Of a DNA stretch of 64,000 bases, positions 3,623-30,047 are shown piece by piece; positions within the stretch are counted from its first letter, which is position 1, and the number at the start of each line of letters is the position of its first letter. This stretch comes from Desulfovibrio sp. Its GTDB lineage: Bacteria; Desulfobacterota; Desulfovibrionia; Desulfovibrionales; Desulfovibrionaceae. The stretch spans positions 1 to 64,000 of the forward strand of contig JACQYS010000013.1 of NCBI GenBank assembly GCA_016208105.1, written 5' to 3'. A program made the translations under genes and the position numbers. The notes under the pieces were generated by a model, which did not search any database, was not told the origin of the DNA, and worked only from the letters and a program-made list of their open reading frames with translations.

Positions 3623-6600
3623 TCATAAAGCGTAGCGCTTCGCCATCACCCTCTCAATCACTTCCACCAGCGCCACCTTATCCACTGGCTTGGCAATATA
3701 GTCATCCATACCGGCAGCAAGGAACGTCTCCTTGTCTCCAGCCATAGCGTAGGCGGTCATGGCAATGATGGGTATGTTCGACTTCGTTCCCAGGGTGGTG
3801 GACCCCCTTAACGCTTTGGTAGCTACGACACCGTCCATGACTGGCATCTGGACGTCCATAAGAATCAAATCGAAATCCTGCTCTGCCAAAAGCTGAAGCG
3901 CCTCTTGACCATCATTCGCAGTGGTGACTGAGTAGCCGGATTTCTCAAGCATCCGTCTGCATGTGAGTGAGCTTACCGAATCGTCTTCTGCAATGAGTAT
4001 GTTCAAGGAAGATCGTGGAGGAGTCAGCAACGGATCCGAATTAAGCTCAACTGATTTCTGTTCGACCACGGGAAGCTTGAACGGCAGGGAGAGGTAGATG
4101 GTCGTTCCTTCACCCGGTGTGCTATCAATCGCAATCTCTCCTCCCAAGAGCTTCACAAGTCGCCGAACGATGGAAAGCCCTAGGCCAGCTCCTTGAAAGC
4201 GCCTGGTGTATGAACCCTCAGCCTGGACAAATGGCTCAAAAATATTCTTGAGGTACTCTTCGGGAATACCTATGCCTGTGTCCCGCACAGTTACCAACAC
4301 ACGGACTGAAGAATCTCCTGAACTTGGCAACATTGAGGCATCAATCCGGACTTCTCCTTTCTCCGTGAACTTAATGGCATTCCCGACAAGGTTGAAAAGG
4401 ATTTGTCTCAACCTAGCCTCATCACCTATCAATACCAGGGGCAGGTTCTCATCGCGCCCGAACTCCAAACGGAGCCCTTTCTCATTTGCCTCTAAGGCGA
4501 AAAGCTCCTTGATGGAATCCCGTGTCTGCTTAATGTTGAACTCGGTCTCAACGATTTGCATTTTCCCTGCTTCGATCCTTGATATGTCGAGAATATCTGA
4601 GAGCAGCCGAGTCAGGCGATTTGTGGACCGAATCGCTCCAAACAGGTACTCTTTTTGTTCCTCATTCGGGTCTGTAGTCTCAAGCAGCTGGAGCATACCG
4701 AGAACCCCGTTCAGAGGGGTGCGAATCTCGTGGCTCATGTTGGCCAGGAATTCATTTTTCGCAAGTGTTGCTATTTCAGCTTGTTCCTTTGCGCGTTGCA
4801 ATTCTATTTCAGACTTTTTGCGAGAAGTAATATCCATAAACATTACTGCTAGACGGTCATGTGAAAGCCTGAAACAAAGAATCTCATAAGTACCAGCCAC
4901 ATATTCGTCTTCATAGCCAACCTGTTCTGTGTGCCATGCTTTGCCACTTCGTAAAACATCAAGATAGTGCTCTGGGACGTCTGTTTCTTTTAGCATTGGA
5001 AACGCTTCGAATATATCTTTACCCATCAAGAGAGAGTGGTTTATCCCCAAAATCGTTTCTGCTGCGGGGTTAGCTCCACTGAAAACAAGTCGCTCGCCAA
5101 CCAATTCATAGAGGTGCATGCCTATTGGTGTCTGCTCTATGATTGACCGAAGTGTTTCTTCACTTTGCTTAAGAGCTTTTTCAGATTCTTTTTGGTCAAG
5201 CACTTTCCAGACAGAGTCCATCAGCAAGATTAACTGATGCACATCGGTACTTGTATAGCCTGACTCTTTGTTTGCCATTCCTACAACTGATATTATTTTA
5301 TCATTTTTAAAGACAGGGATTGTCATGAAAGAATGTAGCTGGACATGCCCCTCTGGATAGCCTCGTTTCAATGGATTTTGGGCCTGATAATCATTAACAA
5401 CGATTGGCGTGCGCTGCCGCACAGCCTCCCCCCATATGCCTGTCTTGTTTAGTTCATAACATGTTAAAGGCTTTGCTACACTGCATTCATGCATTACATC
5501 CTTAGACCATGTATTTAAAATAAAATGCCTCTCCTCTTCATCATAATGATAAATGTATCCTATTTTACTGTTTGTAATCCGTATGGCCTCTTCTAGTGCG
5601 AAATCCAAATAATTCTGTGCCGACGTAAATGGATGCTGAAGGATGTTTACAAGGCCCAGCAAACGCGCCTCGTTTAGACGATTTTCCTCTTCAACTCGTT
5701 TGCGTTCAGTTATGTCCACAAATGTCACAACAACCTGAAATACTCGTCCATCAGAATCGAATTCTGGGAACGCATTTACTAAAGCCCATATCTGGTCGTT
5801 TGTGCTCGGGCGTTTTATGCCAAGAATCAAGTTCTTGATTGGAGAGCGCGAGGCGAATACTTGGGAAACGGGGTAATCCTCGACAGCGACCGGTGACCCG
5901 TCTTCATGAATAAAACACCAAGCGGGATCGATGACTGTCTTGCCCCTGATCTGATCGCTAGTTAACCCAAGCAATTGAGCAGCCTGATCGTTCGCAATAA
6001 GTATGCGAGAGTCTGACGAATGAACGACAACACCTGCATGAAGATTCTGTATTAGCTGCTGGTTTTTCTTCTCGCTTTCCCGGAGTGCCTCTTCGGTCCG
6101 CTTGCGGTCGGTAATCTCAGACTTGAGCCTACGGTTCCAGAACCAGAGAGTGATGCTCACCAAAAAAACAATAGCTGTAATAATTCCTCCGACAAGCCTC
6201 CACTCCAAACCATGCTCAAATCGTATAGACATAGAGTGGTTAATAATCTGTTGGGCCTCGTCAGGTGTCAGTGCAAACAGGAACTTATCAATTATTGAAA
6301 CCAGCTCCGGCCAATCCGGACGTATTGCCATTGCCTGGCCCAGAGGTGGATAATTCGCTGGCGCAGCGATTTTGACATTTGTGTACCCATGCCTCTGAAT
6401 AACAAAGGTTCCGACAGAGAGATCGCCCGCATAAGCGTCAACTTGGCCTAAAGCGAGAGCCTCCAATGCCTTGTGGGAATCTGAATACTCGACAACTGAA
6501 ATGTCTGGATAATCCTTTACCAACATCTTTGTCAGTATGAAGTCAGTCTCTGCCGAAACCTTCTTGTTCTTAAAATCTGCTAAACCGTTTACAAAGGGGC

Positions 6601-7060
6601 TATCTACCCTTGTGAAAATGACCCACGGGGTAAATATATAGTCATGTGTGAAGAGCAGTTGGCTTTCTCGCTCTGGTGAACGCCGAAGCGTGGGCAAAAT
6701 GTCAATCATATTGCCTGATGCTAAGCTCTTCAGAGCCTCTGTGAATGTTCCTCCACCCTGGGGGATAAATTCGTGTTTAATGGCAAAAGCAGCAAAAATC
6801 ACTTGAAGGTAGTCGATGGAAAGACCGTATGGTTTCCCGTTAAGAGAAAAATGGTAAGGTGAAACTTCACCTACACGAACTCGAACTGAATGATTTCCGG
6901 CAAGCCATGCCTGTTCCGCTGGGGTAAGAACAACTCTCTGAGACACTCGAGTGGCTAAGTCCTGAATGAAGTCTGTCGGCGCTGTAGCAGAAGCCTGTCC
7001 AGAAAGAATTAAGGAACAAAATGCTGCCATAACAGCGCGTATGATCAATCCGGGGGACAT
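3623..7060 (-). CDS. BvgS/EvgS-like hybrid sensor histidine kinase
   Basis: A 1145-residue membrane sensor. In order: a signal peptide (1-25), a periplasmic solute-binding domain of the SBP_bac_3 type (~45-285), one membrane helix (~290-310), a PAS domain, a GAF-like domain (~445-600), a second PAS, a HisKA domain with phospho-acceptor His777 in H-E-I-R-T-P-L-N-G, a HATPase with N-x-x-G-N-A-I-K-F and G-I-G-I-P boxes, and a C-terminal receiver with phospho-acceptor Asp1069 in [11 protein letters not shown]. The design implies amino-acid-like ligand sensing outside the cell. There is no separate histidine phosphotransfer domain or cognate response regulator nearby, so the output partner lies elsewhere. 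The start at 7060 has AGGA upstream and exposes the signal peptide; 7123 would add 21 residues. Confidence 0.93.
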
Positions 7061-7369
7061 GTTGTTCCTGCGGTTAACGAGTTGTATTAATACAATGAGC
7101 GATAGCTTCGCCAACGCAGTCATGAACTAATCGCTACTGGTGCATGTACGGTTTCATCCATTGAACGTATCACCAAAGTGATCCTTCCCTGTCCGTCCTC
7201 AACCTGCCAATGTTCATGCACCCTAATTCGCAAAATCTTCATTATCCCCGCTCTGAAAAGGGAGTACCCGGGTTACCCACGCGAAACCTGGCCGGGAATC
7301 TTCCTGCCTTTGTGGCCATGTCTTCGGAGATCGGGCCAACCCGGCGGCATGCCCCCTGGGTTCGTTACG

Positions 7370-9535
7370 TCATGCCCCGAGCCGGGGCAGGGACTTTCGT
7401 CCGGCGTCCTCGCCATTCTGGAGCCCCTCGATAAGGCCCTGCAGCACTACGGCCTGTTGGGCGAGCTGGGCGACGGCTTGGGCCGCCTGAATCATGGCCT
7501 GGGAGGTCTCTGAGGAAATAGTGCTCACCTCTTCGATGGAGCGGTTTATCTCCTCGCTGGCAGCGGACTGCTGCTCCGAGGCCGCGGCGATGGAGCGCAC
7601 CTGGTCGGCCGCGGTGTCCACCATTTTGACGATCTCGGCCAGAGACTGGCCCGACTGGTTGGCGAGTTCGGTGGCCTCCTCGATGGAGGTCACCGCCTTA
7701 TCGACGTTCTCGATGTTATTGCGGGTCTCCAACTGGATCCCGGAGATGGCGTCTCCGACCTCCTTGGTGGCGTTCATGGTCTTCTCGGCCAGCTTGCGCA
7801 CCTCGTCGGCCACCACTGCGAAGCCGCGTCCTGCCTCACCCGCTCGGGCGGCCTCAATGGCAGCGTTCAAGGCCAGAAGATTAGTCTGATCGGCGATGTC
7901 GGAGATGACGTTCATAATTTGGCCGATCCCTTCCGCCTGGGTCCCCAAGACTCCCATGTTGGTTTTTAATCGCAAAGCCTGGCCTTCCGCTTCCTTTATG
8001 CCCTTCACCACACGCCCCACGATCGCCGCACCGTCCTCGGCGTTATGCTTGGCGTCCTCGGCGGATTGGGCGGCTTGGGACGCGTTGCGAGCGACCTCCA
8101 AGACCGTGGCGTTCATCTCTTCCATGGCGGTAGCGGTCTCGCCCACTCGCTCGGCCTGGTTCTCGGCCCCGCGGCTGGACTGCTCGACCTGGGCGGAGAG
8201 CTCTTCCGAGGCGGACGTCAGAACCTCTCCGACCTGCTGCAACTCGGCCGCCACGCGCAGCATGTTGCGCATGGATTCGTCGGTGCGCTTGCGTGATTCC
8301 TCGGCCTCGGCCATAGCCTCATTGGCTTTTTTGGCCTGGACTGCCGCTTCCTCCGACTTGGCGTTGGCCTCGGCGATCTTGTCCTTGAGGCTCCCCACCA
8401 TCACGTTCAGACTGCTTGACAGCTCGCCGATCTCATCCTTCTGGTTGATGTCGAGGGTGCGAGAGTAATCGCCGCCGGCCACGGCCTTTGCGAAGGTGAC
8501 TCCCTTAAGCACCGGACCCGTAATGATCCTGGTCATGAACACGGCGATGATGCATCCGGCCAGAAGGGCCACTCCCAGGCCCGCGCTCAACACAATCCGC
8601 GACTGCCCCAGCTTCTCATCCGCCTCGTTCGCCTGGTTGATCATCTGGGTCATGCCGGTCTGGGCCACCGCCTTGGCGACTTCAAGGACCTTTTCCGCCG
8701 TGGCGTTGCGCTCCTGGTTCAGTTCGAGACGCAGTTTCGTTAGCCCGGCCTGTTTTTCCAGGAGGGACTTGTACTTACCAGCTGCGGCCAAGAGCTCATC
8801 CATGCCCTGTATGTCAGCCGGGTCTAAGGAACTCGCCTTAAGCTGGGCCGCATCCGCCTCGATAGTGGGGAACAGCGCCTTGGCAGCCTCATATTGTTTG
8901 ATATCCGAAGTGGCGTCTCCGGTAAGCACTTTTATACGGATGTCTGCGGCAGTTTCGGATATCTCTGTTATGAGGCCGAGTTTCTGTAGCCGGGCGACGA
9001 GCTTCTCGTTTGCAACATCCTTTGTAATTTCACTCTTGAATTTAGCGTCTTGGCCCTTACGGTAATTCTGGCAAACGGCCACGAATTCCGCTGCAGCCTT
9101 GAATCGTTCAGCTTTGGCTTGCAGCTCATTGTCGACACCTTTTTTCGTTTCGGCGGCCAGCTTCTCGTATTCCAGGATTTTGTCCATGGCGGCGGAGGCG
9201 CCGTCGCGAAGCTTCACCAATAATGGATATTTACCGGCTAAGGCCTTGGCCTCCTCCAGGGACTTCTTCACCTCGGCGATGTCCTTCATGGCTTGGTCGT
9301 AATACTTCCCCTCGAAACTGTAGGCGTACCCCCGCATGTTGTACATGGTGGCCAGCACATGCATCTCCACCTCGTTGGCTATGCCCACTTCCGGGACCAG
9401 CTCAAGCTTCATTCGCTCAGAGCCTTCCTCGGCCGAACGCATGTTCACGATGGCCAGGACACCCAGCACGCAGGTAAGCAGCAGGACAAAGCCGAATCCG
9501 ATTCCCATCTTGACCCCCAGACGCAAATCCTTCAT
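7370..9535 (-). CDS. Methyl-accepting chemotaxis protein
   Basis: A 721-residue transmembrane chemoreceptor: an N-terminal membrane helix (~8-28), a long helical periplasmic sensor (~30-310), a second membrane helix (~315-335), a HAMP domain, and a cytoplasmic coiled coil with the invariant hairpin tip [16 protein letters not shown]. It has no C-terminal pentapeptide tether for CheR. The ATG at 9535 lies just after GAGAGGTGAG; a GTG three codons upstream falls inside that site. It resembles the second receptor at 15.2-17.2 kb in layout, but the sensor helices differ in sequence. Confidence 0.95.
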
Positions 9536-9737
9536 TTCGCTCACCTCTCCGTATGTTGTGATTGCTCCAGAGCTGCTTGCCTAAGAATTCGACTCACTAG
9601 GAAGTATCCTCTTATGTTTCCATACTGCGTTTTGAACAAGTAGGGACTCCCGCATTATTTTTCGATCCTCGCTACTCTTTCCGAAGAAAAGGCAGATATC
9701 AGTTTCTGGACGGCCCAAACCTGCTCACATGGCGACT

Positions 9738-9771: not shown

Positions 9772-12700
9772 ATGAGAAAAATTTCTTCAGAATCTATTAG
9801 GTTAGGACTCCTTGCCCCACTCACGGGGATTGTTTCTATGTACGGGCAGGACATTGCCAGGGCAGGTCAAATCGCCACAGATTTGGTCAATGACTCAGGA
9901 GGAGTGCTAGGGAAAAAGCTGGAAATAATTATCTCTGATGATGGCAGTTTGCCAGAACACGCCGTTCCAGCTGCAAAAAAGCTAGTGCAAAAAGACAATT
10001 GTCATGCCCTCATTGGGAATCTATTGTCCAACTCTCGCATCGCCGTAGCTGAGCATGTCTCTGTGCCTTTCAAGATTCCCTATCTCAATTTTTCCTTTTA
10101 TGAAGGAAGCATTTATAACCGTTACTTCTTTCATTTTGCGGCGCTTCCGAACCAGCAAATCGATAAAATGATTCCCTACATGGCAGATAATTATGGGATG
10201 AAGATGTACTTTGCTGGGAATAACTACGAGTGGCCTCGCGGTTCGATTGATGCAGCTAAACAGTCTTTAGAGCGTATCGGTGGTGAAGTTGTAGGAGAGC
10301 AGTATCTATCTCTTGGGATAAGCAACGATGAAATTGAATGGGTCTTAGATAATGTTTCTCGTTCAGGAGCTGACGTTTTTGTTCCATATTTTGCCGGGTT
10401 AGATCAGTTGCTGATGCTCAATAAATTTCATGATCGTGGTTTAAAAAAACATATGGCTGTAGTCATGGGGCACTATGATGAGGTCATGGTGTCACATTTA
10501 ACTCCAGAAGTTCGCGAAGGGCTTTATTCATCAAATACGTACTTCATGTCGGTAAAAACAAAAGAAAACGCAATATTTCTCGACAGGCTAAAGCAGTTTC
10601 GTGGGGTTGATGGATTATGGCCTGATGGCAATGGAACGTTAACCAACTTTGGAGAAGCCACATATAATTGTGTTTTGGCATTCGTTGACGCGGTACATAG
10701 GTCTGGAACTCATGAGAGTGACACTGTGGTTGAAGCTTTGGAATCTACTCGGATATTTGGACCACAGGGTGAAATCATTATGAATGCAGACATCCATCAT
10801 GCCCACGTAAACAGCTATTTAGCTAAATGCAAAAGTGATGGTAGTTTTTCTATAGTCAAAAATTTTGGATGTATTGCACCAGAAATCCCTAAAAGATACA
10901 AAGAACTTTTTGAAACTCACAAGAGGGTTTCTCGAAGATCAGCCCCGAATGAGGCATCTCGACTAGCTCGTGATCTTGTTCAAGGTCAAAACAAGAAGGA
11001 CGACAGTAAGAAGATTCTGGATCTAGCTGGGATGGCCATACTGGCAACCGATTCTTCTGGAACTATAACGGCTGTAAATCGAGTTCTTTCCTCGCTTTTT
11101 GGGTATGCAGAAAGTGAATTGATTGGAATGAACATGTCTTTTCTTGTTCCTCCGCATTTGCGCCAACGACATAACAAATATATTGAAATGTTTCTTGAAA
11201 ATGAATTTAATGAAATGGTCATGGGAAAGAAGGGTGAAGGAATTGGATATAGAAAAGATGGCACTTTTTTCCCGATAGAAGCATCAATAGCCAAGTTCAG
11301 AAGTGGCGATGACTGGGTGTTGGTGGCAACACTACAGGACTTGACGGAAGTAAAAAAGCATCAGGAGATGCTCACAAAGCAGGCTTCTCACGACGTATTG
11401 ACGGGTCTACCTAATCGTGAACTCCTCCACGAACGAATTGAAAACGCTCTGGCCCGCTCGAAAAGAAGAGAAGAAAACATTGCCTTGCTATTTGTTGATC
11501 TCGACGACTTCAAATCTATAAATGACAGGCATGGACATAATGCTGGCGACCATCTGTTAAAGACTCTTTCTTCAAGGCTTATAGAAAATGTGCGACCAGG
11601 TGATACTGTGTCTCGTTTCTCTGGGGACGAGTTTGTAATCCTATGCGAATATGTTTCAGACCCATCTGACATGGCATCTCTTGCTGAACGCATTAACCAG
11701 GCAATTCGGCTACCTGTAGAGTATAAATCCACACTATTGGTTGTCACAGCGAGCATCGGGATAGCACTGGGGCATGGAACAACCCATTCATCCGAAGATC
11801 TGTTGCGCTCTGCAGACAATGCAATGCATACTGTGAAACAGAATAAGCGTGACGGTTGGAATTTCTTTAACGAATCACTACAACAAGCAGCAATTCAACG
11901 CATTTCTATATCTACAAATCTCCGCTTTGCACTTGAAAAAAATGAATTTCAAGTGGTTTTTCAGCCTATAGTATCTCTTGAAAGTGAATCTATTTCAGGA
12001 GCAGAAACGCTACTACGTTGGAACTCTCCAGATGGGCCGGTCTCTCCAGCAGTATTCATTCCGATCGCTGAAATGAATGGCAGCATCCTACAAATTGGAA
12101 GATGGGTGTTTGAGCAAGCATGCAAGACTCAACGACGCTGGGAGGCAAAGTTTGGCGATCAATCTCCATACATAACGTTCAACTTATCAGCCAGACAATT
12201 CGCTGATGAAAGTCTCGTCAACTTTTTTGAGAAAACGATTCGAACCACGGGAGCTAACTCAAACAAACTAGTACTCGAGATAACAGAAACAGCCTTGATG
12301 TCAGATGTTACGAGGAATATTAAAACGTTAGAGGAGTTTCGAAAGATTGGAATTAAAGTAGCTGTTGATGATTTTGGAACAGGCTATTCTTCCTTGGCTC
12401 AACTAGTACGACTCAATATAGACACTCTTAAAATTGACAGAATGTTTGTCTTAGACATCGACAAGAGCCAAGAGAACCACGCTATTGTTGCTGCAATCAG
12501 TCGAATGGCAAAATCTCTAAACATCCATATGGTCGCTGAAGGGATCGAGAATGAAGATCAACTAAATGAGATGCTTACTTTGGGTGTACAATCCGGACAA
12601 GGCTATCTCTTTTGCAAGCCGATGCCAGAGAAAGAACTGCATAAAATAATCACAAAAAGCGTCAGTAACATTTGTGTTACAAATGATGATGTACATTTCA

Positions 12701-13101
12701 TTATATACGCAAGCGTCTCGGATTCGATTGTTGACGAGAATGAGATACGGAATATTCAAAAACAATCACAGAATCATAACAGATTGAACAGGATTACAGG
12801 GCACTTAATCTATCACCATGGAGTTTTCATCCAGTACATTGAAGGACCTAAAGTCAACGTAAAAAAACTCTATGAAAAAATATCAAACGACTCTCGGCAT
12901 CACAATATTACTCTCATGGCAGAAGGCACCTCTCCAAACCGTTTGTTCATTGGGTGGTCAATGAATTGTCATATACTGAGCAAGAATGATCTGGCCAGTC
13001 TAGCCGGTTATGACCTTGATACAATTTCTTTGTTTGAAAAGTGTAAAAACAATCCAGAACTATGCATAGCTTTTTTTGATCTTTTATCAAAATCACATTA
13101 G
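9772..13101 (+). CDS. Ligand-binding/PAS/GGDEF/EAL/BLUF c-di-GMP protein
   Basis: A 1109-residue protein with no signal peptide. Residues ~8-370 form a type I periplasmic-binding fold (AmiC/urea-binder class), here cytoplasmic; ~413-530 PAS; ~545-700 GGDEF with S-G-D-E-F at 617-621 and an R-x-x-D I-site just before; ~720-960 EAL with E-T-L-L-R-W at 745, E-x-T-E, D-D-F-G-T-G and V-A-E-G; ~974-1065 BLUF. In BLUF, Tyr979, Asn1003, Gln1021, Trp1062 and Met1064 have exactly the spacing of AppA Tyr21/Asn45/Gln63/Trp104/Met106, so flavin-based blue-light sensing is likely. The EAL residues look complete (phosphodiesterase); the SGDEF variant may or may not still make c-di-GMP. The gene is AT-rich against its neighbours, which suggests transfer. 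Confidence 0.92.
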   Translation: MRKISSESIRLGLLAPLTGIVSMYGQDIARAGQIATDLVNDSGGVLGKKLEIIISDDGSLPEHAVPAAKKLVQKDNCHALIGNLLSNSRIAVAEHVSVPFKIPYLNFSFYEGSIYNRYFFHFAALPNQQIDKMIPYMADNYGMKMYFAGNNYEWPRGSIDAAKQSLERIGGEVVGEQYLSLGISNDEIEWVLDNVSRSGADVFVPYFAGLDQLLMLNKFHDRGLKKHMAVVMGHYDEVMVSHLTPEVREGLYSSNTYFMSVKTKENAIFLDRLKQFRGVDGLWPDGNGTLTNFGEATYNCVLAFVDAVHRSGTHESDTVVEALESTRIFGPQGEIIMNADIHHAHVNSYLAKCKSDGSFSIVKNFGCIAPEIPKRYKELFETHKRVSRRSAPNEASRLARDLVQGQNKKDDSKKILDLAGMAILATDSSGTITAVNRVLSSLFGYAESELIGMNMSFLVPPHLRQRHNKYIEMFLENEFNEMVMGKKGEGIGYRKDGTFFPIEASIAKFRSGDDWVLVATLQDLTEVKKHQEMLTKQASHDVLTGLPNRELLHERIENALARSKRREENIALLFVDLDDFKSINDRHGHNAGDHLLKTLSSRLIENVRPGDTVSRFSGDEFVILCEYVSDPSDMASLAERINQAIRLPVEYKSTLLVVTASIGIALGHGTTHSSEDLLRSADNAMHTVKQNKRDGWNFFNESLQQAAIQRISISTNLRFALEKNEFQVVFQPIVSLESESISGAETLLRWNSPDGPVSPAVFIPIAEMNGSILQIGRWVFEQACKTQRRWEAKFGDQSPYITFNLSARQFADESLVNFFEKTIRTTGANSNKLVLEITETALMSDVTRNIKTLEEFRKIGIKVAVDDFGTGYSSLAQLVRLNIDTLKIDRMFVLDIDKSQENHAIVAAISRMAKSLNIHMVAEGIENEDQLNEMLTLGVQSGQGYLFCKPMPEKELHKIITKSVSNICVTNDDVHFIIYASVSDSIVDENEIRNIQKQSQNHNRLNRITGHLIYHHGVFIQYIEGPKVNVKKLYEKISNDSRHHNITLMAEGTSPNRLFIGWSMNCHILSKNDLASLAGYDLDTISLFEKCKNNPELCIAFFDLLSKSH

Positions 13102-13298: not shown

Positions 13299-14555
13299 TT
13301 ACCCGCCCATACGTTTTATGTCGTTACTGAGGTGATCAAATGCTTTTCGCACCTTGCCTCTGAGAGCTTCCTGTTGGGAACCAAGACTCCCAAGTTTCCA
13401 AAACAACAAACTAAAGCAAATGATGCTCAGAACGACAAGTGACCCGAGCGTCCAGAACATCCAATTGGCCGACGATTCGAACGAGGCGAACCTTGTTTCA
13501 ATTCCTGCCTTGAGATTCTTCAAGTCAGAGGAGAGAGCCTTACTCGTTTCTGAACCTGTATCGCCAGTGCTTACCTTCCCGGGATTAGTCATACTCTTCA
13601 ACTGTGCTGCCAGCGAATCAATCTTGTCCTTGACATCTTTCAATTCCGAGGCAGCTTCAGCCGTCTTAGAGTCAAGCTTGGTCGCAAGTTCTCTAACCTT
13701 TGGAGCCAGCGACTGATCCTCGGAAGACACCGTTGGCTTGTTCTCTGTTGGCTTCTCAGCAACATGACTGCTCTGTTCATACATAGCCCCGATAGCTCTG
13801 TCCGGAGAAGCTTCCACTTCTTTCAGGATCGCCGGTACTTTTTCGGCGGGCAGCCAGTTAACTTTTCCAGTGTCCATGTCATAGATCGCACCTACGACCT
13901 TTGCCTTGCCATTTTTTACAAGGTCACGGACTGCCGGACTTTTGAGAAATAAATTCCTAACCACTTCCCAAACGTTCGTCTCGATGGCCCGTTTGATAAG
14001 GGAATCGTCTTTAAGGTCTGGGTGCTCAGCGATGGCACGGTGAACAGCAGGAATAATTGAAGACACCAGTGGTGGGATATTGCGCTCCAAGGGATGGCCA
14101 TGACCGGTAACTTCTTGAGTAACGGCTGTAACCGCTCCGCATTGGGTATGGCCCAGAACGACCAGCACTGGGGTATTCACATGGCACAACCCATATTCCG
14201 CGGTACCGATCTCATCCGTATTGGCCACGTTTCCAGCCACCCGTATCACGAAGAGATCCATTATTCCTGTATCGAATACAATCTCTGGCGGCACTCGTGA
14301 GTCTGAGCAGGACAAAACGGTGGCTAAGGCATGCTTTCCCTGACTTTCCGTACTCGCCTGCATGATACGTTTTGAATCCATGTGAGGATGCTTGCTTTTT
14401 CCAAGTACGAATCGACTGTTCCCCTCGTTGAGCCACGCAATAATTTTATCAGGTGGCGGCTTGCCAGAGGTATCGCTGGGACTAGCAAGTGATGCGTTGC
14501 TGGAGAAAACCATCATACAAATCACTATAAAAAGGGTAGCCGGTATTGATTTCAT
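13299..14555 (-). CDS. Exported beta-carbonic anhydrase with membrane anchor
   Basis: A 418-residue protein predicted to interconvert CO2 and bicarbonate outside the cytoplasm. Residues 1-25 form a signal peptide. The zinc ligands and catalytic dyad of the beta class are present: Cys83, Asp85, Arg87 in C-S-D-S-R, then His136 and Cys139 in G-H-T-Q-C-G. After the catalytic part (ends ~240) comes a charged, heptad-rich region (~270-360) and a single membrane helix (~365-390) with a short basic tail. Ordinary beta-enzymes have about 200-230 residues, so the C-terminal half is an addition. GGAGAG lies just upstream of the start. Confidence 0.9.
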   Translation of the reverse strand: MKSIPATLFIVICMMVFSSNASLASPSDTSGKPPPDKIIAWLNEGNSRFVLGKSKHPHMDSKRIMQASTESQGKHALATVLSCSDSRVPPEIVFDTGIMDLFVIRVAGNVANTDEIGTAEYGLCHVNTPVLVVLGHTQCGAVTAVTQEVTGHGHPLERNIPPLVSSIIPAVHRAIAEHPDLKDDSLIKRAIETNVWEVVRNLFLKSPAVRDLVKNGKAKVVGAIYDMDTGKVNWLPAEKVPAILKEVEASPDRAIGAMYEQSSHVAEKPTENKPTVSSEDQSLAPKVRELATKLDSKTAEAASELKDVKDKIDSLAAQLKSMTNPGKVSTGDTGSETSKALSSDLKNLKAGIETRFASFESSANWMFWTLGSLVVLSIICFSLLFWKLGSLGSQQEALRGKVRKAFDHLSNDIKRMGG

Positions 14556-18467: not shown

Positions 18468-19643
18468 TTAAACGGCAATCAAGCTGGGCAACTTGCTAAC
18501 AGCCCGTTCTTTCTCACCTTCCAAGTAGTGATAGTAGACATCGGCGGTCATCTTCACTGTCGAGTGACCCATCAGCTTCGACACCGCCGCCAAGTCTGCT
18601 CCATTCGCCAACATCGTCGTCGCGAAGAGATGGCGTAGGTCATACATCCTGACATCCACGGTGATTCCAGCCTTCACGCAGGCCTTGTTGAAGCTCTTCC
18701 GGATCGTCGTCACCGGCTTCCCGTCATATTCAACGATGTACCCAGACCTTGAAAACCTCCTCATCTCTCGAAGGCGATCCAGAAATGCCGCCGTTACCGG
18801 GACAGTCCGATAGGTCTGCGTTTTGGTAGCGAAAATCCGCACCGTGCCAGCGCCGAAATCCACATTTTCATAGCGCAGTGCGAAAAGCTCCGAAGGACCA
18901 GGCCGAGTCCCGAGGTTAAAGCAGACCTCCATGGCCCACCGGACATGAGGTTCAGCGCACTCCATGATCCGGCGCAGGTCATCAACGCCGACCTGGACGT
19001 CCCGAGGTTTCTCCTTGGCTTTCTTCCGACCCTTCATCGGGTTCCTGGCAATGAGTTCCATCTCGATGCCGAAGTTGAATATCGCGTCGAGGTAGTCGCA
19101 GTAGCGATTGACGCAGGACTGGGACCGTGGCCTTTTCGTCTGATGACTGATCCCTTGCATCTCCTTGATGAACGGGACGATGTCCTTCAGGTACGTCATG
19201 CCCTCGACCAGGGTGTCACGACCAAGGATGTCGAAGAACATGCTATTGAGCAGGTTCTCGAGGTTGGCGATGTGCTTCGGCGTCCGACCCGACACCCGAA
19301 GGTGATCCAGGTACATCATCGACAACTGACCAAAGGTGACCCCCTTGGCAGGGATGACGACAGCAGCCACCGTCGCTACCGACGTCGCCAGCGGCATTTC
19401 AGCCTGGATTTCTCCAGGCCTAGTCCCCGGCTCATCCTGGTGCGCAACCGGGTCCGCCCCCGGCTCAGTGACCTGCGCCTCCTGAACAGGCACATTCAGA
19501 TTCGCTTTCGCTTCCTGAATCGCAAGATCAAACGCCTCAGCCTGGAGACGGGCCACTTCGCCCCTACCGAAGGACTTGTCCCGCCTCTTACCTTCTTCGT
19601 GCCAATAGACCATGAACCGTCCATCGCGTTGATAGACGCCCAT
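18468..19643 (-). CDS. Tyrosine site-specific integrase
   Basis: A 391-residue tyrosine recombinase. The N-terminal ~30 residues resemble the arm-binding domain of phage integrases (aromatic-rich, W-H-E-E-G-K-R). A SAM-like core-binding domain follows (~100-200). The catalytic domain carries the first Arg in N-L-G-T-R-P-G, then L-R-H-L-F, G-H-S and the nucleophile region V-Y-Y-H-Y near the C-terminus. It is related to the integrase at 40,648-41,721. It presumably moves the 18-34 kb island, but I could not find matching attachment repeats for it. Confidence 0.93.
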   Translation of the reverse strand: MGVYQRDGRFMVYWHEEGKRRDKSFGRGEVARLQAEAFDLAIQEAKANLNVPVQEAQVTEPGADPVAHQDEPGTRPGEIQAEMPLATSVATVAAVVIPAKGVTFGQLSMMYLDHLRVSGRTPKHIANLENLLNSMFFDILGRDTLVEGMTYLKDIVPFIKEMQGISHQTKRPRSQSCVNRYCDYLDAIFNFGIEMELIARNPMKGRKKAKEKPRDVQVGVDDLRRIMECAEPHVRWAMEVCFNLGTRPGPSELFALRYENVDFGAGTVRIFATKTQTYRTVPVTAAFLDRLREMRRFSRSGYIVEYDGKPVTTIRKSFNKACVKAGITVDVRMYDLRHLFATTMLANGADLAAVSKLMGHSTVKMTADVYYHYLEGEKERAVSKLPSLIAV

Positions 19644-19733
19644 TTGAGCACCCTCCGTTGGTGGTGATTGCAGATGACTATTGAAGAGAAAGGGACGACC
19701 AGATCGATCGCCCCGGAATCGGATAACTAGACC

Positions 19734-19949
19734 TTACACATCAAGACAGAACTTGATCGTCAAACTATGGCCTCCGAGAAGCAGTTCAGAATAATGTCCG
19801 TCTTCACTAGATTCGAACGGATAGTCATGTTCTTCATTCATCTTAACCAGAATCTGAAGATTCGGAATCATGCACAACAAACGCAACATATTCTCGATAT
19901 TAGAGGCGTGCTGCAAAGTTTCCAACGATGTATAGCGGTTAGTACTCAT
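19734..19949 (-). CDS. Small hypothetical protein
   Basis: 71 residues, starting at an ATG six bases after AGGAGAA. Acidic, with a run of hydrophobic residues in the N-terminal half and no recognisable motif. It sits between the two recombinase genes on the same strand. Confidence 0.5.
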   Translation of the reverse strand: MSTNRYTSLETLQHASNIENMLRLLCMIPNLQILVKMNEEHDYPFESSEDGHYSELLLGGHSLTIKFCLDV

Positions 19950-20003
19950 GGCGATTCTCCTGATAATGAAAAGGGCCATTTCTGACCCTGCTAAAGTGTT
20001 TGA

Positions 20004-20561
20004 TCACAATGCGTTGAGGAGGATTTCTTCCACCTCTTCATCCTGCACCCCAAGATACCTTCGCGTTATCGAGGGGCTACTGTGATTGAGCCTCTTGGCC
20101 AACAACTCCCATGAAACGCCAAATGTTTTGCGTTGATGGTAACACCACGTCTTTCGCAATGTATGTGCTCCAAAGTTGCCTTGAAGATTGATCTCGTCGC
20201 ACCAGCGCTGTACCATCATCGTGACAGCATACGTGGTCAGCGGATAATTCTTCCCCTTGCGACTCTTGAACAGGAAATGCTCATCTTCGAGTTTCGAAGT
20301 TGCAAGGTGCTCAGTGAGAGCATACTTGATTTCCTTGTTCATTATGAAGATGTTCTCTTTGCCAGTTTTCTTTTCCTTGAGGCAGACGCGGTCGCCAATT
20401 TTGCAATACTTCACGTCTGATACTTTCAAGGCCAATATATCTTGGACCCTGAGCCCAGAGTTCACCCCCATGGTAAAGAGTAGCCGGTTACGCGGCTGAT
20501 CCGCCAAGAGCTTCTTGATGCTCTTGATGTTCTTGAGGTCGATAATGGGCTCAACTTTCAT
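20004..20561 (-). CDS. Second tyrosine recombinase, short form
   Basis: A 185-residue protein that is nearly only a catalytic domain: the first Arg in S-G-L-R-V-Q-D, H-T-L-R-K-T, then L-N-H-S-S-P-S-I-T-R-R-Y with the presumed nucleophile Tyr. The core-binding N-terminal domain is missing. Start at 20561 with AAAGGAGGTG; a longer start at 20603 lacks support. It resembles phage-integrase-like inversion or resolution enzymes more than the main integrase. It may resolve multimers or invert DNA of the element. Its target is not visible. Confidence 0.82.
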   Translation of the reverse strand: MKVEPIIDLKNIKSIKKLLADQPRNRLLFTMGVNSGLRVQDILALKVSDVKYCKIGDRVCLKEKKTGKENIFIMNKEIKYALTEHLATSKLEDEHFLFKSRKGKNYPLTTYAVTMMVQRWCDEINLQGNFGAHTLRKTWCYHQRKTFGVSWELLAKRLNHSSPSITRRYLGVQDEEVEEILLNAL

Positions 20562-20603
20562 GAGCACCTCCTTTGCAACGTTGTTTTTCGCTTCCAAACC
20601 CAA

Positions 20604-20875
20604 CTAAATCGTAGATTCAAAACAGGGGTTGGCTGGGACCGTCCAGCTAAGCCTGGAGTATCCCGTTGCAATACAACACCTTATGCCGTAACGCGCCTCC
20701 AATGTACGATTCTATCTATTATCGTTCTTTCCTCCGTTGTAGAGTTGTCACATTATACCAATGATATCTGTATTACTTTGTGCATTCTGCCAGAAAATCG
20801 GAGTGACCATTCTGAAGGCTGCGAATCAGAAGTTATGTTGCACGGAGGAGAGAAGGCAGGATTCAAACAGAAGAA
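20604..20875. other. Intergenic region with no gene
   Basis: About 270 bases with AT-rich stretches upstream of the short recombinase. Promoters for that gene probably lie here, but I could not fix one. Confidence 0.4.
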
Positions 20876-20902
20876 AATGCCACCTCTCTAGAGCATGGCA
20901 TT
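20876..20902 (-). terminator. Rho-independent terminator of the AbrB-like gene
   Basis: The stem AATGCCA/TGGCATT with a loop of about 13 bases is followed on the minus strand by a T-rich run (TTTTCTTC), just past the stop of the HTH-AbrB gene. Confidence 0.6.
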
Positions 20903-20917
20903 CGTAGATGGTTGATT

Positions 20918-21301
20918 TCAGATCACCGTCAGGATGATCCGATTGTCTTCGACAGTGACGGCGAACTCGTCGCCTTCATTGACGTCGAGGCTTCCCAGAT
21001 CAAGCTTGTTGACGTTGATCCGCACCTCGCCCTTCTTGTTGACGTAGGGACGTGCAGAACTCTTGAGATAGAGTCCTTTGACGTCGTAAAACTGCCTGTC
21101 CTGGCTGATGAGCTTGAGGACGAAGTGCTTCAGAGTCGGCTTGTGCGTAATGTTCATCTTTTCCATGATGGACTTCGCGTCGAGACCTTCCCTGATGCAC
21201 TCCCTGAGAAGCGAAGCATTGTACTTCGACTCAGGGCGCTTCTTTTCGCCCACGCCATCGAACTCTTCACCCTCAATGGGCTGAACCTTATTCGCTGACA
21301 T
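20918..21301 (-). CDS. HTH-AbrB type regulator
   Basis: A 127-residue protein. Residues ~25-75 look like a helix-turn-helix segment. The last ~45 residues read like an AbrB/SpoVT swapped-hairpin: K-K-G-E-V-R-I-N, L-x-V-N-E-G-D-E-F-A-V and I-I-L-T. AGGAGG lies just before the ATG. Its own terminator and a ~900-base upstream region suggest it is transcribed alone. It is the best candidate for the regulator of the island. The assignment rests on pattern, not on an alignment. Confidence 0.65.
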   Translation of the reverse strand: MSANKVQPIEGEEFDGVGEKKRPESKYNASLLRECIREGLDAKSIMEKMNITHKPTLKHFVLKLISQDRQFYDVKGLYLKSSARPYVNKKGEVRINVNKLDLGSLDVNEGDEFAVTVEDNRIILTVI

Positions 21302-22217
21302 ATTGCCTCCTTTGTTTTAGGCGGTGGTATAAGAATCTAATATCTATATGATATGACTCGAATAATGTCATAGGGAGGAAGAAGCTTTCCCGTTGCGACA
21401 GGCGGAAACGTTCGTTGGGCCGAGGATCGCTCCTACGGGGTTTTCGGGTCCGGGGCAGGGTCAACCCTGGGGAAGCCCCAGAAAGAGCAGGAGGCTGGAG
21501 ATTTGGAGGAGTGTCTGTGGAGCTGGTGGCGTGGACGGAGATTGAAGCAACTGCGCCGAGGCAATCTGGACAAGAAGCTCTTTGTCACTTTTGCTTGCTA
21601 CGACTTACTAGAACTATTTCACTGGATACTTTTCGTCCACATTTGCCTTGTGATAAGCCTTATATTCAACATAAGGCTGATATTTCCAGTCAACAATAAA
21701 CAAGATAGATACAAAGAGACGGAGAGGACAAACCCCTCCGTGCTGAAACGGGGTCAGATTGATCTTTTAATGACAACGATTAGGGCTTGCTTCAGTATTT
21801 CCCTCGCAAGCTTTGATTCAATGAGAACCATGACGACTCTCAAAACCATAGTGCCTCCTTTTCGTCAGTTGTCCTGTTCTCCATCGCATTCCTGTAAAGA
21901 ACAAAGCCCTTGACTCCGAAAAGCCAAGGGCCTTGCTCAGCCACCGTACGATACCCTCTAATATCTCTATGAACGCGACTCAAAATGACATCGTATTTGT
22001 CATTGACATCGTCGCAATTCAAAATAGATATACAGAATTTGCAGGCGCAGACGCGACATAATTGTTATTTTGTTAAGCGAGGCAAAACTTTCGACGATGT
22101 CGATGACTCAAATACTGGCGACCTGGGAGGACATCTTTCGCTTTATGTTATCAAAATGCCTCAAATCTCGCAGACCACGAATCTTTCAACCCAGCTGCAG
22201 GACACCCGCTAGCTGCG
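21302..22217. other. Gene-poor stretch
   Basis: About 900 bases. The part next to the AbrB-like gene (21,320-21,375) is AT-rich and contains ATGAC/GTCAT half-sites, a plausible promoter-operator. Several reading frames of 60-136 codons on both strands lack ribosome binding sites and recognisable motifs, so I do not call them genes. Confidence 0.4.
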
Positions 22218-22631
22218 TCACATATCCTCAACTGGCTCAGGACAGTAATAGCTCGAACACGTTGAAGCACATTGTTTGGCGTCGGCAATAACAAAACCCA
22301 TGACAGAGCAACGCATCCCATCAGACCCTGTTTCGAAATCTTCATCAGGCTGACAGAAATCACAGTCCGAGCAGGACCTGTCATTCGGAACCATATTTGG
22401 CGCAGACGACTGAACATTACTGGCCTGATCAACTTGGACACGATTCATTTGAAGCTCATCACCACTGGCAAGAGCCATACTGTTTGCATAATAATCTTTA
22501 TGAAACGAATTGACACTTTCTATGTCGTCATCGCAAGAGACACCTGACTCGGCATTGACCACTTCAATGTCGAATGGGCAGAACGTCTCTAGGTCAAGTC
22601 CTAAACCTTTTAGGAAGTTCAAGAAGACCAT
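22218..22631 (-). CDS. Cysteine-rich hypothetical protein
   Basis: 137 residues with an acidic N-terminal half and a Cys-rich C-terminus: C-S-D-C-D-F-C, then C-S-V-M, C-A-S-T-C and C-P. The pattern could bind zinc or an iron-sulfur cluster. GAAGGAGAAAG lies upstream of the ATG. It is downstream of the DUF927 gene on the same strand, across 263 AT-rich bases. No family recognised. Confidence 0.55.
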   Translation of the reverse strand: MVFLNFLKGLGLDLETFCPFDIEVVNAESGVSCDDDIESVNSFHKDYYANSMALASGDELQMNRVQVDQASNVQSSAPNMVPNDRSCSDCDFCQPDEDFETGSDGMRCSVMGFVIADAKQCASTCSSYYCPEPVEDM

Positions 22632-22739
22632 GTCGCTTTCTCCTTCGCATAGTTATTATTCAAAAGCTTCATCTCCATAGAACTGGAATCGCCAGCGGCT
22701 TCGACGTTCCAAATACCCAACAAAAATCTGCCACCACCG

Positions 22740-22894
22740 TCGCTATTTATATTATAATGATATCATAATAATAATTATATATAATAAATATATTTTAGTT
22801 ATTTGGAACGTACAATAAGAATAAGAATTACATGTACACATTGAACAGTCACAGGAGCAGGGTGGCTGGGATGCAAAAATTTGGAACGTACAAG
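22740..22894. repeat. AT-rich segment with direct repeat of TTTGGAACGTACAA
   Basis: The segment 22,745-22,800 is almost pure A/T. The 14-mer TTTGGAACGTACAA occurs at 22,802-22,815 and again at 22,880-22,893, with GTTATTT next to each copy, on opposite sides. The second copy abuts the DUF927 stop codon. It could be a protein-binding repeat, a crossover site or a replication-associated region. Confidence 0.45.
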
Positions 22895-24769
22895 TTATTT
22901 AGGACTGGTCCTTCCCCGTCCGTCCCAAAAGGATTTGGCACTGAAGCAGTACATTGGCACTATTACGTTCTTCGACTCGCCAGCAGTTTTAGGGATGACG
23001 ACCTTTCGCTGATACCCTTTGGACCAGTCATCGGTGATGAGCCAGCCTTTGTCCTTCCAGAGACGGACCACTTCTAAGGCTTTAAATCCATTCTTTCTAA
23101 GTATATCATCCAGAATCGTTTTCGTTAACCCTGCGAATGTCCATTCTCCATCGTCAGTCACGTCGCAATACGCTCCATGCATGTCACCAGACCAAGGGAT
23201 ATTTTGACGCGCCTCGGCTGGTAAATACACTCGATTCTGATTACTGCTAATCCATTCCTCTACGCACCCAAACGCCTGAGAAGCAATATCTGCAGATTTT
23301 GCTTCATTCATTGCCCTGGACCAGACTGAATCGAGTAGGTTTCGTACTGGCGTGCTCCGTTTCAGTTCAGGTAGAGCCGCATGGATGACTGCAATCGCAG
23401 TAGCGACAGCGGCAAAGTATTCACCAAGTCGCATTTCAACAGGCGTCAAACCCGGCGATTTCGTAAGAAGCTCATTCGCTTCGGCATACGCTTCCTTCCA
23501 GAGAGGCCATTGGTCCCGATGGTCCAGGATGAACTGAACCATGCGAGGTCCAGCATGGCCGAAGTGGTCAGTGACCCCTGTCTTGGTCCTGGTGACAACA
23601 GCTTTGCTCTCAGCGTCTGTCCTGAGGAAAGGGTTGCCCCAAAGGTCGATGATCCTGCCCCTGGCACCACCGTCTGTACTCAGGTCCAGGCTTGGCGTCT
23701 CTCCAGTTGAGAAGAGGATGGTCCTGAACGGTTGCACCCGTTCAGAGCCACGGAGGGTCGCTCGGCCCTTATCCATGCCGGATGCGATCATGTAGATGGT
23801 GTCAGTGACGAGGTCACTGCCGTACTTGTTCTTTTTGTTCTGCAATCTAGCTAGTTTGGTTTCGTCCAGGAACAACGGCAGTCCATTAAGTAGAGCCGCC
23901 ATCCTACCGATCCTGTTGTCAGTCCCGTTCCATGTGTTGATGAATGAACCCGCATGGAACGAAGGATTCCCCCATGCCGATGCCGCCAGCATCAGCGCGG
24001 TGGTTTTCCCTGAGGAGCTTGGAGCGCAGAGTTCGAGGGTGAAATTGTCCACCCCCAGGATCGGAAGCAATGGCGCGGCCAAGGACGTGTACAGCGCAAA
24101 GGCGACGTCAGCGTACTCCAGGGCTTCATTGACGATGGAGGCCCAGGCGGCGAAGCTTCCCTTCTGAGCAAAGCCATTGGCAAATTGCTCATCTCCCTGG
24201 TCAGCACCCTTGAAACGAACCACCGGGGCCTGGCCGGGAAGTTTACTGGCGGAAGTCCCACTCAAGTACGAGTGCCCCCAGAGGAACCCCGCCATGTCCT
24301 CGGTCCAACCCAGGCGGCCGTCCACAAACGTCTTCGGGATGTTGCCACTGTTAACCCGATCATATTCTTGAAGATACTCGATGATTCCATTTGCGTTAAT
24401 GCTCGTGACGGGGAAGTTGTAATTTGCCAATCCGACAATGCTGGTCTTGCTTGCGATGACTCCGCGTTCAATTTGATGCTGATGCCACCTCCCGTCGCGC
24501 ATCCAGGCCAATGTGACATAATGCAACCCCGTAGACCTGTTCTCCGAACATTCGCTAATCACGATTGGGCATGGTGAAAGCCGTATCCCGCCTGCATCAG
24601 TCGATTTCACAAGGCTCAGGTCCTTCGCAAACAGATACCGATGCGGCAATTCAGACGCATTTGATACTGGCGCATTGGGGATACGCTGTTGAATGTTAAT
24701 CGTCTTAAGATCTGTATCTTGAGCGACTGCGCTCTTACTGCTTGTATTGACGGTTTGATTAGTATTCAT
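22895..24769 (-). CDS. DUF927-domain ATPase/helicase
   Basis: A 624-residue protein of the DUF927 family, found in mobile elements and thought to act in element replication. The N-terminal third holds the DUF927 region (G-x-L-G-W-T-E-D near residue 140). A P-loop reading S-S-S-G-K-T-T is at about residue 255, followed by W-N-G-T-D and F-L-D-E motifs of an AAA-like core. Start at 24769 follows AAAGGAAA; a GTG at 24832 overlapping the stop of the upstream gene would add 21 residues but has no ribosome binding site. The upstream neighbour is the first radical SAM gene. Confidence 0.85.
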   Translation of the reverse strand: MNTNQTVNTSSKSAVAQDTDLKTINIQQRIPNAPVSNASELPHRYLFAKDLSLVKSTDAGGIRLSPCPIVISECSENRSTGLHYVTLAWMRDGRWHQHQIERGVIASKTSIVGLANYNFPVTSINANGIIEYLQEYDRVNSGNIPKTFVDGRLGWTEDMAGFLWGHSYLSGTSASKLPGQAPVVRFKGADQGDEQFANGFAQKGSFAAWASIVNEALEYADVAFALYTSLAAPLLPILGVDNFTLELCAPSSSGKTTALMLAASAWGNPSFHAGSFINTWNGTDNRIGRMAALLNGLPLFLDETKLARLQNKKNKYGSDLVTDTIYMIASGMDKGRATLRGSERVQPFRTILFSTGETPSLDLSTDGGARGRIIDLWGNPFLRTDAESKAVVTRTKTGVTDHFGHAGPRMVQFILDHRDQWPLWKEAYAEANELLTKSPGLTPVEMRLGEYFAAVATAIAVIHAALPELKRSTPVRNLLDSVWSRAMNEAKSADIASQAFGCVEEWISSNQNRVYLPAEARQNIPWSGDMHGAYCDVTDDGEWTFAGLTKTILDDILRKNGFKALEVVRLWKDKGWLITDDWSKGYQRKVVIPKTAGESKNVIVPMYCFSAKSFWDGRGRTSPK

Positions 24770-24788
24770 TTCGGATTTCCTTTGAAGA

Positions 24789-24818
24789 AGGGCCACCAAT
24801 TTTTCACTTGATGGCCCT
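24789..24818 (-). other. Intercistronic hairpin
   Basis: AGGGCCACCAA and TTGATGGCCCT form an 11-position stem with one mismatch between the first radical SAM gene and the DUF927 start. There is no long T-run, so it may tune mRNA stability or coupling rather than terminate. Confidence 0.5.
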
Positions 24819-24828
24819 CTTTTAACGC

Positions 24829-25770
24829 TCACCGCTTCAGCCAGATCACTGCTGCGTCATTGACACTGTATCCGTCACCATCAGAGTAAACCAAAATCTT
24901 GAGCTGATCCAAGCAACCCCTGGAGATGGCGGCATTGGTTGCGGTATTGATCAAGTCTTCAACGTACAATTGATGAAAGTGAGATGACCGGATCATATCG
25001 AATTCGTGAGCATGCAATCCATACCCTTTCTGTTGAAGCGCCTTGGCGCAGTTGACGATCCCAGGCCCTCGCGCATTCAAAGGTTCAGTCCAAATCGTTT
25101 CAGGTTTTGCAGCCAAAACAGAATCGAGCATGCATTCGTAGTCTGATTGCGACGTGCCAATACCAGGCAGAACTGGACATATCATTCCGTAGGTTCGAAT
25201 GCCCATGTCCCGAGCCAGATGCAGTGCTTGCAAGCGTTCGGTGATGCTGGAGGCATTCGGCTCGATGATCTTCGCGAGGTGCTCATTGTGAACCGGAGCA
25301 GTAATGCTCAAACCAACCATCACCCTATTGCGATATTTCGATATCAGGTCAAAATCATACGCGATAGAAGCGCTCTTCGTGAGAATCCGTACGGAGCAGG
25401 CGCTCTTGGACAAAATCGTCGACAAAAGATGACGCCCAAGATCGTGCGCTCGTGCCTCTGGAGCCCAGCAATCCGTAAGCGTGCTCATCATCACGACATC
25501 GTTACTATCAAGCTTCATGCTCTGGCGTTGAACACGCAAATGTGTCCACAAGTCGACAATAGCCGTTCCGCTTTCAAGGGCAGCAAAAGACGTGATCTTG
25601 TTCTCCTTGAAAAATCTATGCGTTCTTATCAGCGACGGTGTTGAACAATACTTGCACGCATGACCGCAAATCAGTCCGCAATTTACAGCATGTGTGGCCA
25701 ATTGCTTTTTTGCAAACTCATTCGAAAGAGTGATTCCGATGTTCCTTTGGCATGTTAAGACGTTACTCAT
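24829..25770 (-). CDS. Radical SAM protein, SPL/COG1533-like, copy 1
   Basis: A 313-residue radical SAM enzyme. Cys35, Cys39 and Cys42 (C-G-H-A-C-K-Y-C) form the CxxxCxxC motif for the 4Fe-4S cluster that cleaves S-adenosylmethionine. Downstream, R-I-L-T-K-S, L-S-I-T-A-P and a P-N-A-S-x-x-x-E-R-L-Q-A-L block match the spore-photoproduct-lyase/Rv2578c-like group. No SPASM-type extra cluster domain is present. The substrate is unknown. The start at 25770 is preceded by GGGGGTG; the ATG twelve bases upstream is part of that site. Its paralog at 27,702-28,643 has the same length, with the three Cys at identical positions. Confidence 0.85.
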   Translation of the reverse strand: MSNVLTCQRNIGITLSNEFAKKQLATHAVNCGLICGHACKYCSTPSLIRTHRFFKENKITSFAALESGTAIVDLWTHLRVQRQSMKLDSNDVVMMSTLTDCWAPEARAHDLGRHLLSTILSKSACSVRILTKSASIAYDFDLISKYRNRVMVGLSITAPVHNEHLAKIIEPNASSITERLQALHLARDMGIRTYGMICPVLPGIGTSQSDYECMLDSVLAAKPETIWTEPLNARGPGIVNCAKALQQKGYGLHAHEFDMIRSSHFHQLYVEDLINTATNAAISRGCLDQLKILVYSDGDGYSVNDAAVIWLKR

Positions 25771-26242
25771 TAGCACCCCCATTGATTATTGTTTCCTGAC
25801 ACTGGCCGACGCAATTGATCCTTGCGACCAGATTTCAGCACTCTAATGGGGTTATATCTTTATTGCTTTGCTCCGTTAGAACATCAGCGAGGGGTGAGGC
25901 CGATGAGGTGCTCGGTGCCTGAATGAGTCTGAGGGAGCGGACCAGGGGCAACCCTGACCTCGGAGACATTGGCGGAAACGAGTTACCACCTGCCCCCTGG
26001 AAATGAAGGGGCGGTGCGAAAAATGCCGGGGTTTGACTTTGTGCGTTCCCACACGGGGACAGGGCCGCGCAGGACATTCGGTGATCACTCCCACCTTGGC
26101 TCAAATTGAAACGCGGCGAATTCATACCAATTCCAGATGAATTGCGTGAGATTCATCCCTGACCGACACGATCCAGCCTCCCTAAATCATGTACGATTTA
26201 TGCCAGATGATTCCTAACGGCGATTCTGATACGCATGAGGGC
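25771..26242. other. Intergenic region, no supported gene
   Basis: About 470 bases upstream of radical SAM copy 1. A 96-codon minus-strand frame is Pro/Ser-rich and lacks a ribosome binding site, so I reject it. Promoters for the minus-strand block and for the small plus-strand gene should lie here. Confidence 0.4.
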
Positions 26243-26416
26243 ATGGAATGGTTCATCATCGGCGGCGGCGTATTGGTCGCCATCGCCGTCGGAGTTGTCA
26301 TTTTCGGCGGCAAATCCAGGGGAAACGGATCAGTCCCTGGCCGATTCGATTTCGACAGCTACAAGGATCGCGAGTTTCCTCAGCGAGGATTACTCGATAA
26401 GGCGAAATGGCGGTGA
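26243..26416 (+). CDS. Small single-pass membrane protein
   Basis: 57 residues from the ATG at 26243: W-F-I-I-G-G-G-V-L-V-A-I-A-V-G-V-V-I-F forms one membrane helix (~3-21), followed by a basic, polar tail. An upstream ATG at 26189 would add 18 polar residues. Ribosome binding is weak (GAGGG). It is the only plus-strand gene I accept in the island and is followed by a terminator-like hairpin. Confidence 0.45.
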   Translation: MEWFIIGGGVLVAIAVGVVIFGGKSRGNGSVPGRFDFDSYKDREFPQRGLLDKAKWR

Positions 26417-26477
26417 ATGATCAGGCCCTGTCAGATGTGAACCACAGCGAGCGGGACGGGAAGCCCTAGGTGACGAA

Positions 26478-26502
26478 GGGGGCAGGGTTGATTCCCGCCC
26501 CC
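26478..26502 (+). terminator. Terminator-like hairpin
   Basis: GGGGGCAGGG and CCCGCCCCC form a strong stem with loop TTGATT, followed by CTGGTTCTCTTT. It lies about 60 bases downstream of the small membrane-protein gene. Confidence 0.5.
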
Positions 26503-26614
26503 CTGGTTCTCTTTCAGGCAGGGTCTACGTCTTTCCTTGGGCTGGCGTCAGGCAAGATGCCCACTGAGCAGGGGCGGCGATTCGGTCATGTGGTGGAACT
26601 ATCCCTGGAACATG

Positions 26615-27222: not shown

Positions 27223-27253
27223 GGTAGTTCCTTCTAGTTTTCGCTTTCTGGTT

Positions 27254-27496: not shown

Positions 27497-27643
27497 CCAT
27501 CCTTTCTCATGTTGAAGATTATTGGGAGAGAAGTGGAGGATAGCCTGGGGTAGGCGGGTCGGTCACGGGCGGGGGAGAGATTGCGGGGATAGGGCGGGCC
27601 AGGGACCGGGTAAGGCTCTCACTTCCTCGTCCTGAAAAGCAAA

Positions 27644-27663
27644 GGGAGGGGTTTCCCCCTCCC
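27644..27663 (-). terminator. Terminator after radical SAM copy 2
   Basis: GGGAGGGG pairs with CCCCTCCC across a short loop. On the minus strand it is followed by TTTGCTTTT, about 40 bases past the stop codon. Confidence 0.7.
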
Positions 27664-30031: not shown

Positions 30032-30047
30032 ATGCTCTCCTTTAGCC

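Follow-up and report, generated by a model that had tools for sequence, protein, structure and literature searches.

A single gene from a Desulfovibrio genome raises the question of what is sensed, and to what end, by a protein that joins a ligand-binding fold, a PAS domain, both domains of c-di-GMP metabolism and a blue-light photoreceptor in one chain. It lies at 9772-13101 (+ strand) of the window, i.e. the whole 64,000-nucleotide stretch of DNA analyzed here. The initial annotation proposed blue-light control of c-di-GMP integrated with a metabolite sensor in a likely anaerobe, and regarded this arrangement as uncommon. According to our analyses, its 1109-residue product is best read as a BldP-type phosphodiesterase that hydrolyses c-di-GMP in the cytoplasm and whose EAL domain would be activated by blue light and gated by a putative haem-PAS and by the periplasmic-binding-protein (PBP) domain, a reading to which we give a probability of about 0.7.

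The open reading frame starts with ATG and is intact, with no internal stop. The five domain types claimed at first were all retrieved by a Pfam search above the curated cut-offs. From the N-terminus, these are an AmiC/UrtA-like type I PBP fold (residues 8-364, 9793-10863; Peripla_BP_6 at 8-357, 4.9e-62; Peripla_BP_5 at 9-364), a PAS domain of FixL/DosP type (411-527, 11002-11352; PAS_9 at 422-526, 2.4e-12), a GGDEF domain (538-694, 11383-11853; 2e-44, 151.7 bits), an EAL phosphodiesterase domain (716-950, 11917-12621; 9.9e-70) and a BLUF domain (976-1065, 12697-12966; 2.4e-26), all on the + strand. The BLUF profile, on which the light-sensing proposal had been made to depend, scored 92.1 bits for a cut-off of 25. 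Hydropathy revealed neither a signal peptide nor a transmembrane segment (best 19-residue Kyte-Doolittle mean 1.27), in agreement with the claim of a binding-protein fold devoid of a signal peptide. The AlphaFold2 model of the full-length protein (mean pLDDT 85, pTM 0.62) appears reliable for the domains and not for their mutual arrangement; its best structural matches are PAS-GGDEF-EAL or GGDEF-EAL proteins (PA0861, DosP, MorA), and UrtA and AmiC for the N-terminus. Following the BLUF domain (residues 1071-1109, 12982-13098, + strand), helices are predicted at 1071-1078, 1084-1093 and 1095-1108, which may correspond to the capping helices of BLUF proteins, proposed for BlrP1 and BluF/YcgF to act at the EAL dimer interface (PMC3989770).

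Both flanking genes, coding for a chemoreceptor upstream (7370-9544) and a carbonic anhydrase downstream (13299-14555), are on the opposite strand, and the five-domain gene is therefore probably transcribed alone. The carbonic anhydrase is itself an unusual-looking protein, whose beta-type domain is preceded by an N-terminus resembling a signal peptide and followed by a long extension with a probable membrane segment at its end. A hybrid histidine kinase composed of SBP_bac_3, PAS, GAF, HisKA, HATPase and receiver domains is encoded nearby, at 3623-7123.

BldP is said to have been defined by Ryu et al. in 2017 by a C-terminal EAL-BLUF module; its light activation is reportedly oxygen-dependent, and EB1, the EAL-BLUF piece of the Magnetococcus marinus protein, is reported as strongly light-activated. 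The same order, EAL and then BLUF at the C-terminus, is found in the window protein. Two homologues match it almost end to end, one from a genome that we take to be Magnetococcus marinus MC-1 (G767:C1, 3339187-3342489; 53% identity over residues 6-1106), the other from one presumed to be Allochromatium vinosum DSM 180 (G900:C1, 1190645-1193935; 50% over residues 5-1102), both with an identical Pfam architecture. Each is the sole large BLUF protein in its genome, the other BLUFs there being found in frames of 144-261 residues; considering this uniqueness and the presumed species, the two loci are probably the published BldPs. The BldPs of these two species (Ryu et al. 2017, J Bacteriol 199:e00014-17) are listed as BLUF/FAD phosphodiesterases activated by blue light in direct assays (PMC8846402, Table 1). 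The window protein shares with them its full-length homology, the PBP-PAS-GGDEF-EAL-BLUF order and the conserved residues, and differs by its DsrA-bearing host of sulfate-reducing type and by a Lys instead of an Arg at PAS position 487.

This homology backs the initial proposal, in which blue light controls c-di-GMP and a small molecule is sensed in the cytoplasm by the same protein; it is probably right and remains the best reading. Its uncommon character holds within the bacterial order, where a BLUF domain is present in 5 of 348 genomes, but the arrangement is of a known kind, since over 50 proteins show the same five-domain order, their hosts being many Proteobacteria and members of a few further phyla, and two of these proteins have apparently already been characterised (PMC8846402, Table 1). 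The present analysis adds the likeness of the PAS domain to haem sensors with a conserved His467, the conservation of the AmiC/UrtA-like PBP domain and the DsrA-bearing host, with a likely horizontal acquisition of the gene. The haem-PAS and the PBP ligand are the points that deserve a second look.

Other couplings of BLUF to EAL are built differently. Klebsiella BlrP1 (BLUF-EAL) and E. coli BluF/YcgF also link a BLUF domain to an EAL domain, but there the BLUF precedes the EAL domain and is accompanied by neither PBP, PAS nor GGDEF, whereas it is C-terminal to the EAL domain in the window protein. BLUF control of an EAL phosphodiesterase is likewise the principle of PapB-PapA in Rhodopseudomonas palustris, in which the two are separate proteins and PapA is a solo EAL (PMC8846402). 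No PapB-like split, with a BLUF-less member adjacent to a separate BLUF gene, was encountered in the family, the two separate hits, L040 and L058, being frame-broken copies of the same protein. The BLUF-GGDEF/EAL protein recorded in Methylomicrobium alcaliphilum by a 2014 survey (PMC4844311) probably belongs to the BldP-like family.

The extent of this family was assessed with a profile derived from the PBP alignment of two orthologs. In a scan of 84,980 species genomes it retrieved 77 loci with 51-65% identity, of which 37 have all five domains intact and another two are frame-broken; as the search rested on two short peptide patterns only, these counts are lower bounds and not frequencies. 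An earlier scan of genome contigs with the BLUF end as query had found no relative. Including the loci from the whole-genome search, the family set comprises 53 BLUF-bearing and 25 BLUF-less PBP-PAS-GGDEF-EAL proteins (rows L074 and L128 being one gene). Magnetospirillum, Desulfamplus, Sideroxydans, Methylomonas, Azoarcus, Azonexus, Thiorhodospira and Ectothiorhodospira are among the named hosts, several of which live in oxygen gradients. In five proteins of about 1170-1192 residues from the family of Thiorhodovibrio (L153, L154, L155, L156 and L158), around 85 or more extra residues separate PBP and PAS, and their genome-search match to the window protein spans PAS to BLUF only.

In a maximum-likelihood tree built on the PBP-PAS-GGDEF-EAL part and rooted at its midpoint, all the BLUF proteins fall within one 64-row group (support 99), which also holds 11 members devoid of BLUF; explaining the presence and absence of the domain takes 8 changes. 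The domain was probably gained once and then lost several times, a direction that the midpoint root does not prove; such losses suggest that the core of the protein can do without light. The window protein belongs to a 12-member clade (SH-aLRT 99) together with L127, the apparent Magnetococcus protein.

The oxygen part of the proposed function relies on the PAS domain, for which haem domains of FixL rank first among PDB matches (4e-15, plus another six FixL entries), with DosP among the lower matches and LOV proteins weaker; a flavin-binding PAS of the LOV or NifL type is less likely, as the best matches are haem-PAS domains. His467 (codon 11170-11172, + strand), absent from the initial annotation, aligns with His200 of BjFixL (His194 of SmFixL), the haem-iron ligand (PMC10765370), and adds a probable O2 input to the protein. 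It is conserved in 77 of the 78 family members (53/53 with BLUF, 24/25 without), though most PAS positions around it vary; the background level is low, since among 24 comparable PAS-GGDEF-EAL proteins from the host's bacterial family, only 2 have a His at the equivalent position and five are gapped there. Both observations argue against a PAS domain without haem, in which the FixL likeness and His467 would be a trace of ancestry in a mere dimerisation or relay module. In favour of haem, too, a PAS survey identifies this F-alpha histidine as the primary determinant of haem binding (PMC10468136). A haem-less module would be consistent with the Lys at position 487 and with the lack of the His in 40% of the FixL-cluster PAS domains of that survey. 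We regard haem binding as reasonably probable and a haem-less PAS as rather unlikely; the latter would affect only the O2 part and is compatible with a light-activated phosphodiesterase.

An Arg occupies position 487 in 50 of the 53 BLUF-bearing members, at the same spacing from the His, and the HMMER alignment to FixL shifts by one residue. It may correspond to the distal arginine of FixL, presumably R220 in BjFixL. As this position is a Lys in the window protein and its ortholog, their O2 affinity may differ. The haem-PAS oxygen-sensing phosphodiesterases DosP/PdeO and AxPDEA1 are also built on a PAS-GGDEF-EAL core in which the F-alpha haem histidine is present, but possess neither PBP nor BLUF, and the score of the window protein against the DosP equivalog (338.8 bits) is far under the cut-off of 857.

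The two catalytic domains bear on the direction of c-di-GMP turnover. The GGDEF signature reads SGDEF (residues 617-621, 11620-11634, + strand) and is preceded by an RxxD product-inhibition motif, the I-site R608-P-G-D611 (11593-11604, + strand). The protein could be mainly a light- and ligand-regulated diguanylate cyclase, or a bifunctional switch with net c-di-GMP synthesis under some conditions, given its GGDEF profile score of 151.7 bits and the conservation of the metal residues D619/E620 (52 of 53 BLUF-bearing members) and of the Arg (49/53) and Asp (53/53) of the I-site. We consider this improbable. In 35 of these 53 proteins the motif begins with Ser or Ala; the catalytic residues known for EAL domains are all present (E745, N804, E836, E839, D866, D867, K887, E923 and Q943) and are, together with L747, invariant in all 53; and the related BldPs are recorded as phosphodiesterases (PMC8846402).

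The residues of BLUF photochemistry are likewise preserved. The initial annotation had pointed out Tyr979, Asn1003, Gln1021, Trp1062 and Met1064 at the spacing of AppA, a pattern that occurs once in the protein for about 1e-5 occurrences expected from composition (photoactive Tyr979, codon 12706-12708, and Gln1021, codon 12832-12834, both + strand). A control of the EAL domain mainly by PBP and PAS, with the BLUF as a vestigial or purely structural tail without signalling, is improbable. In its favour, BLUF shows the lowest conservation of all folded domains (34-42% to more distant homologues) and was probably lost several times, and the PBP domain is the most conserved one in five of six compared homologues. 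Against it, none of the 53 BLUF-bearing members deviates at Tyr, Gln, Asn or Met, the Trp is conserved in 52, and relatives in two genera are reported as light-activated (PMC8846402). Taken together, the conservation of the EAL and BLUF residues leads us to expect a working phosphodiesterase with a light input; a cyclase activity may or may not be retained.

The closest solved relatives of the PBP domain are urea-binding proteins (UrtA) and AmiC, with TM-scores of 0.85-0.91 for the model and a sequence identity of about 24-28%; the UrtA family cut-off (TIGR03407) is missed, with 155 bits for 492.75. The domain, which ranks first in conservation in five of the six homologue pairs (59-76%), displays strongly conserved motifs, including NNYEWPRG and GHYDE, which suggests one specific ligand. 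AmiC, also a cytoplasmic sensor, shares the type I fold devoid of a signal peptide, but the family-conserved N106, E153, W154 and H234 of the window protein are not matched in the sequence alignment with it; Ser86 aligns with what we take to be the pocket residue Ser85 of AmiC, and the other presumed pocket positions differ. No amidase, urease or ABC-transporter gene is widely recurrent around the family loci, and one broad cluster of signalling proteins recurs in the neighbourhood of 23 loci; the gene neighbourhood thus does not reveal the ligand. Four relatives (L045, L070, L099 and L110) combine this AmiC/UrtA-like domain with PAS and a histidine-kinase output in one chain, some of them including a receiver, which suggests a reusable cytoplasmic sensor module serving more than one type of output. 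Within the PBP clan, only SBP_bac_3 had been studied in c-di-GMP networks (PMC8846402).

The host genome contains this BLUF domain as its only one and encodes a DsrA (602 bits, cut-off 393), which makes a sulfate or sulfite reducer very likely and supports the early mention of a likely anaerobe. A full-length ortholog (70% identity) is present in one other genus of the bacterial family and, among the matches listed for 199 genomes of this family, no other one begins in the PBP domain. The gene has a [G + C] content of 0.41 (0.37 at third codon positions), in a window where values of about 0.54-0.62 are found to the right of a tRNA-Ala gene and 0.45-0.58 are common to its left. Its detection in two genera only and the AT-richness make a horizontal acquisition likely, though not proved.

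Mobile elements occur elsewhere in the window. The 3' end of the tRNA-Ala gene (41792-41867, - strand) is exactly duplicated over at least 45 bp at 34301, so that att-like repeats bound a 7.5-kb element (34301-41836), on which one ORF is integrase-like (40648-41721, +) and another is of the Type ISP restriction-modification kind (34574-37858, +). The region 18468-33000 resembles another mobile element: it encodes a second integrase, of the tyrosine type (18468-19643, -), a primase-like product with D5_N/DUF5906 (30978-32552, -) and a pair of similar ORFs that look like radical-SAM proteins (24829-25782, -, and 27702-28715, -).

In the proposed mechanism, an FAD bound to the C-terminal BLUF would absorb blue light and the adjoining EAL domain would be switched on; c-di-GMP would then fall, favouring a motile, non-attached state. 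The PAS domain, probably haem-bound, would sense O2 (or CO or NO), the AmiC/UrtA-like domain would sense a small cytoplasmic molecule, and both would gate this output; the GGDEF domain would either be catalytically active in its own right or regulate the protein by binding GTP or c-di-GMP. More tentatively, c-di-GMP turnover in this sulfate-reducing anaerobe could be set by a small molecule, O2 and blue light together, allowing the approach to lit and oxic zones to be detected. The haem-PAS, if real, would physically underlie the oxygen-dependence reported for the light activation of BldP.

With these results, the BldP family now reaches into a lineage of sulfate reducers, and haem in the PAS domain offers a concrete hypothesis on how oxygen and blue light may be combined in one phosphodiesterase. 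As EB1, derived from BldP, is already an optogenetics tool (PMC8892541, PMC8846402), knowledge of the other two inputs would aid both its design and the interpretation of its use.
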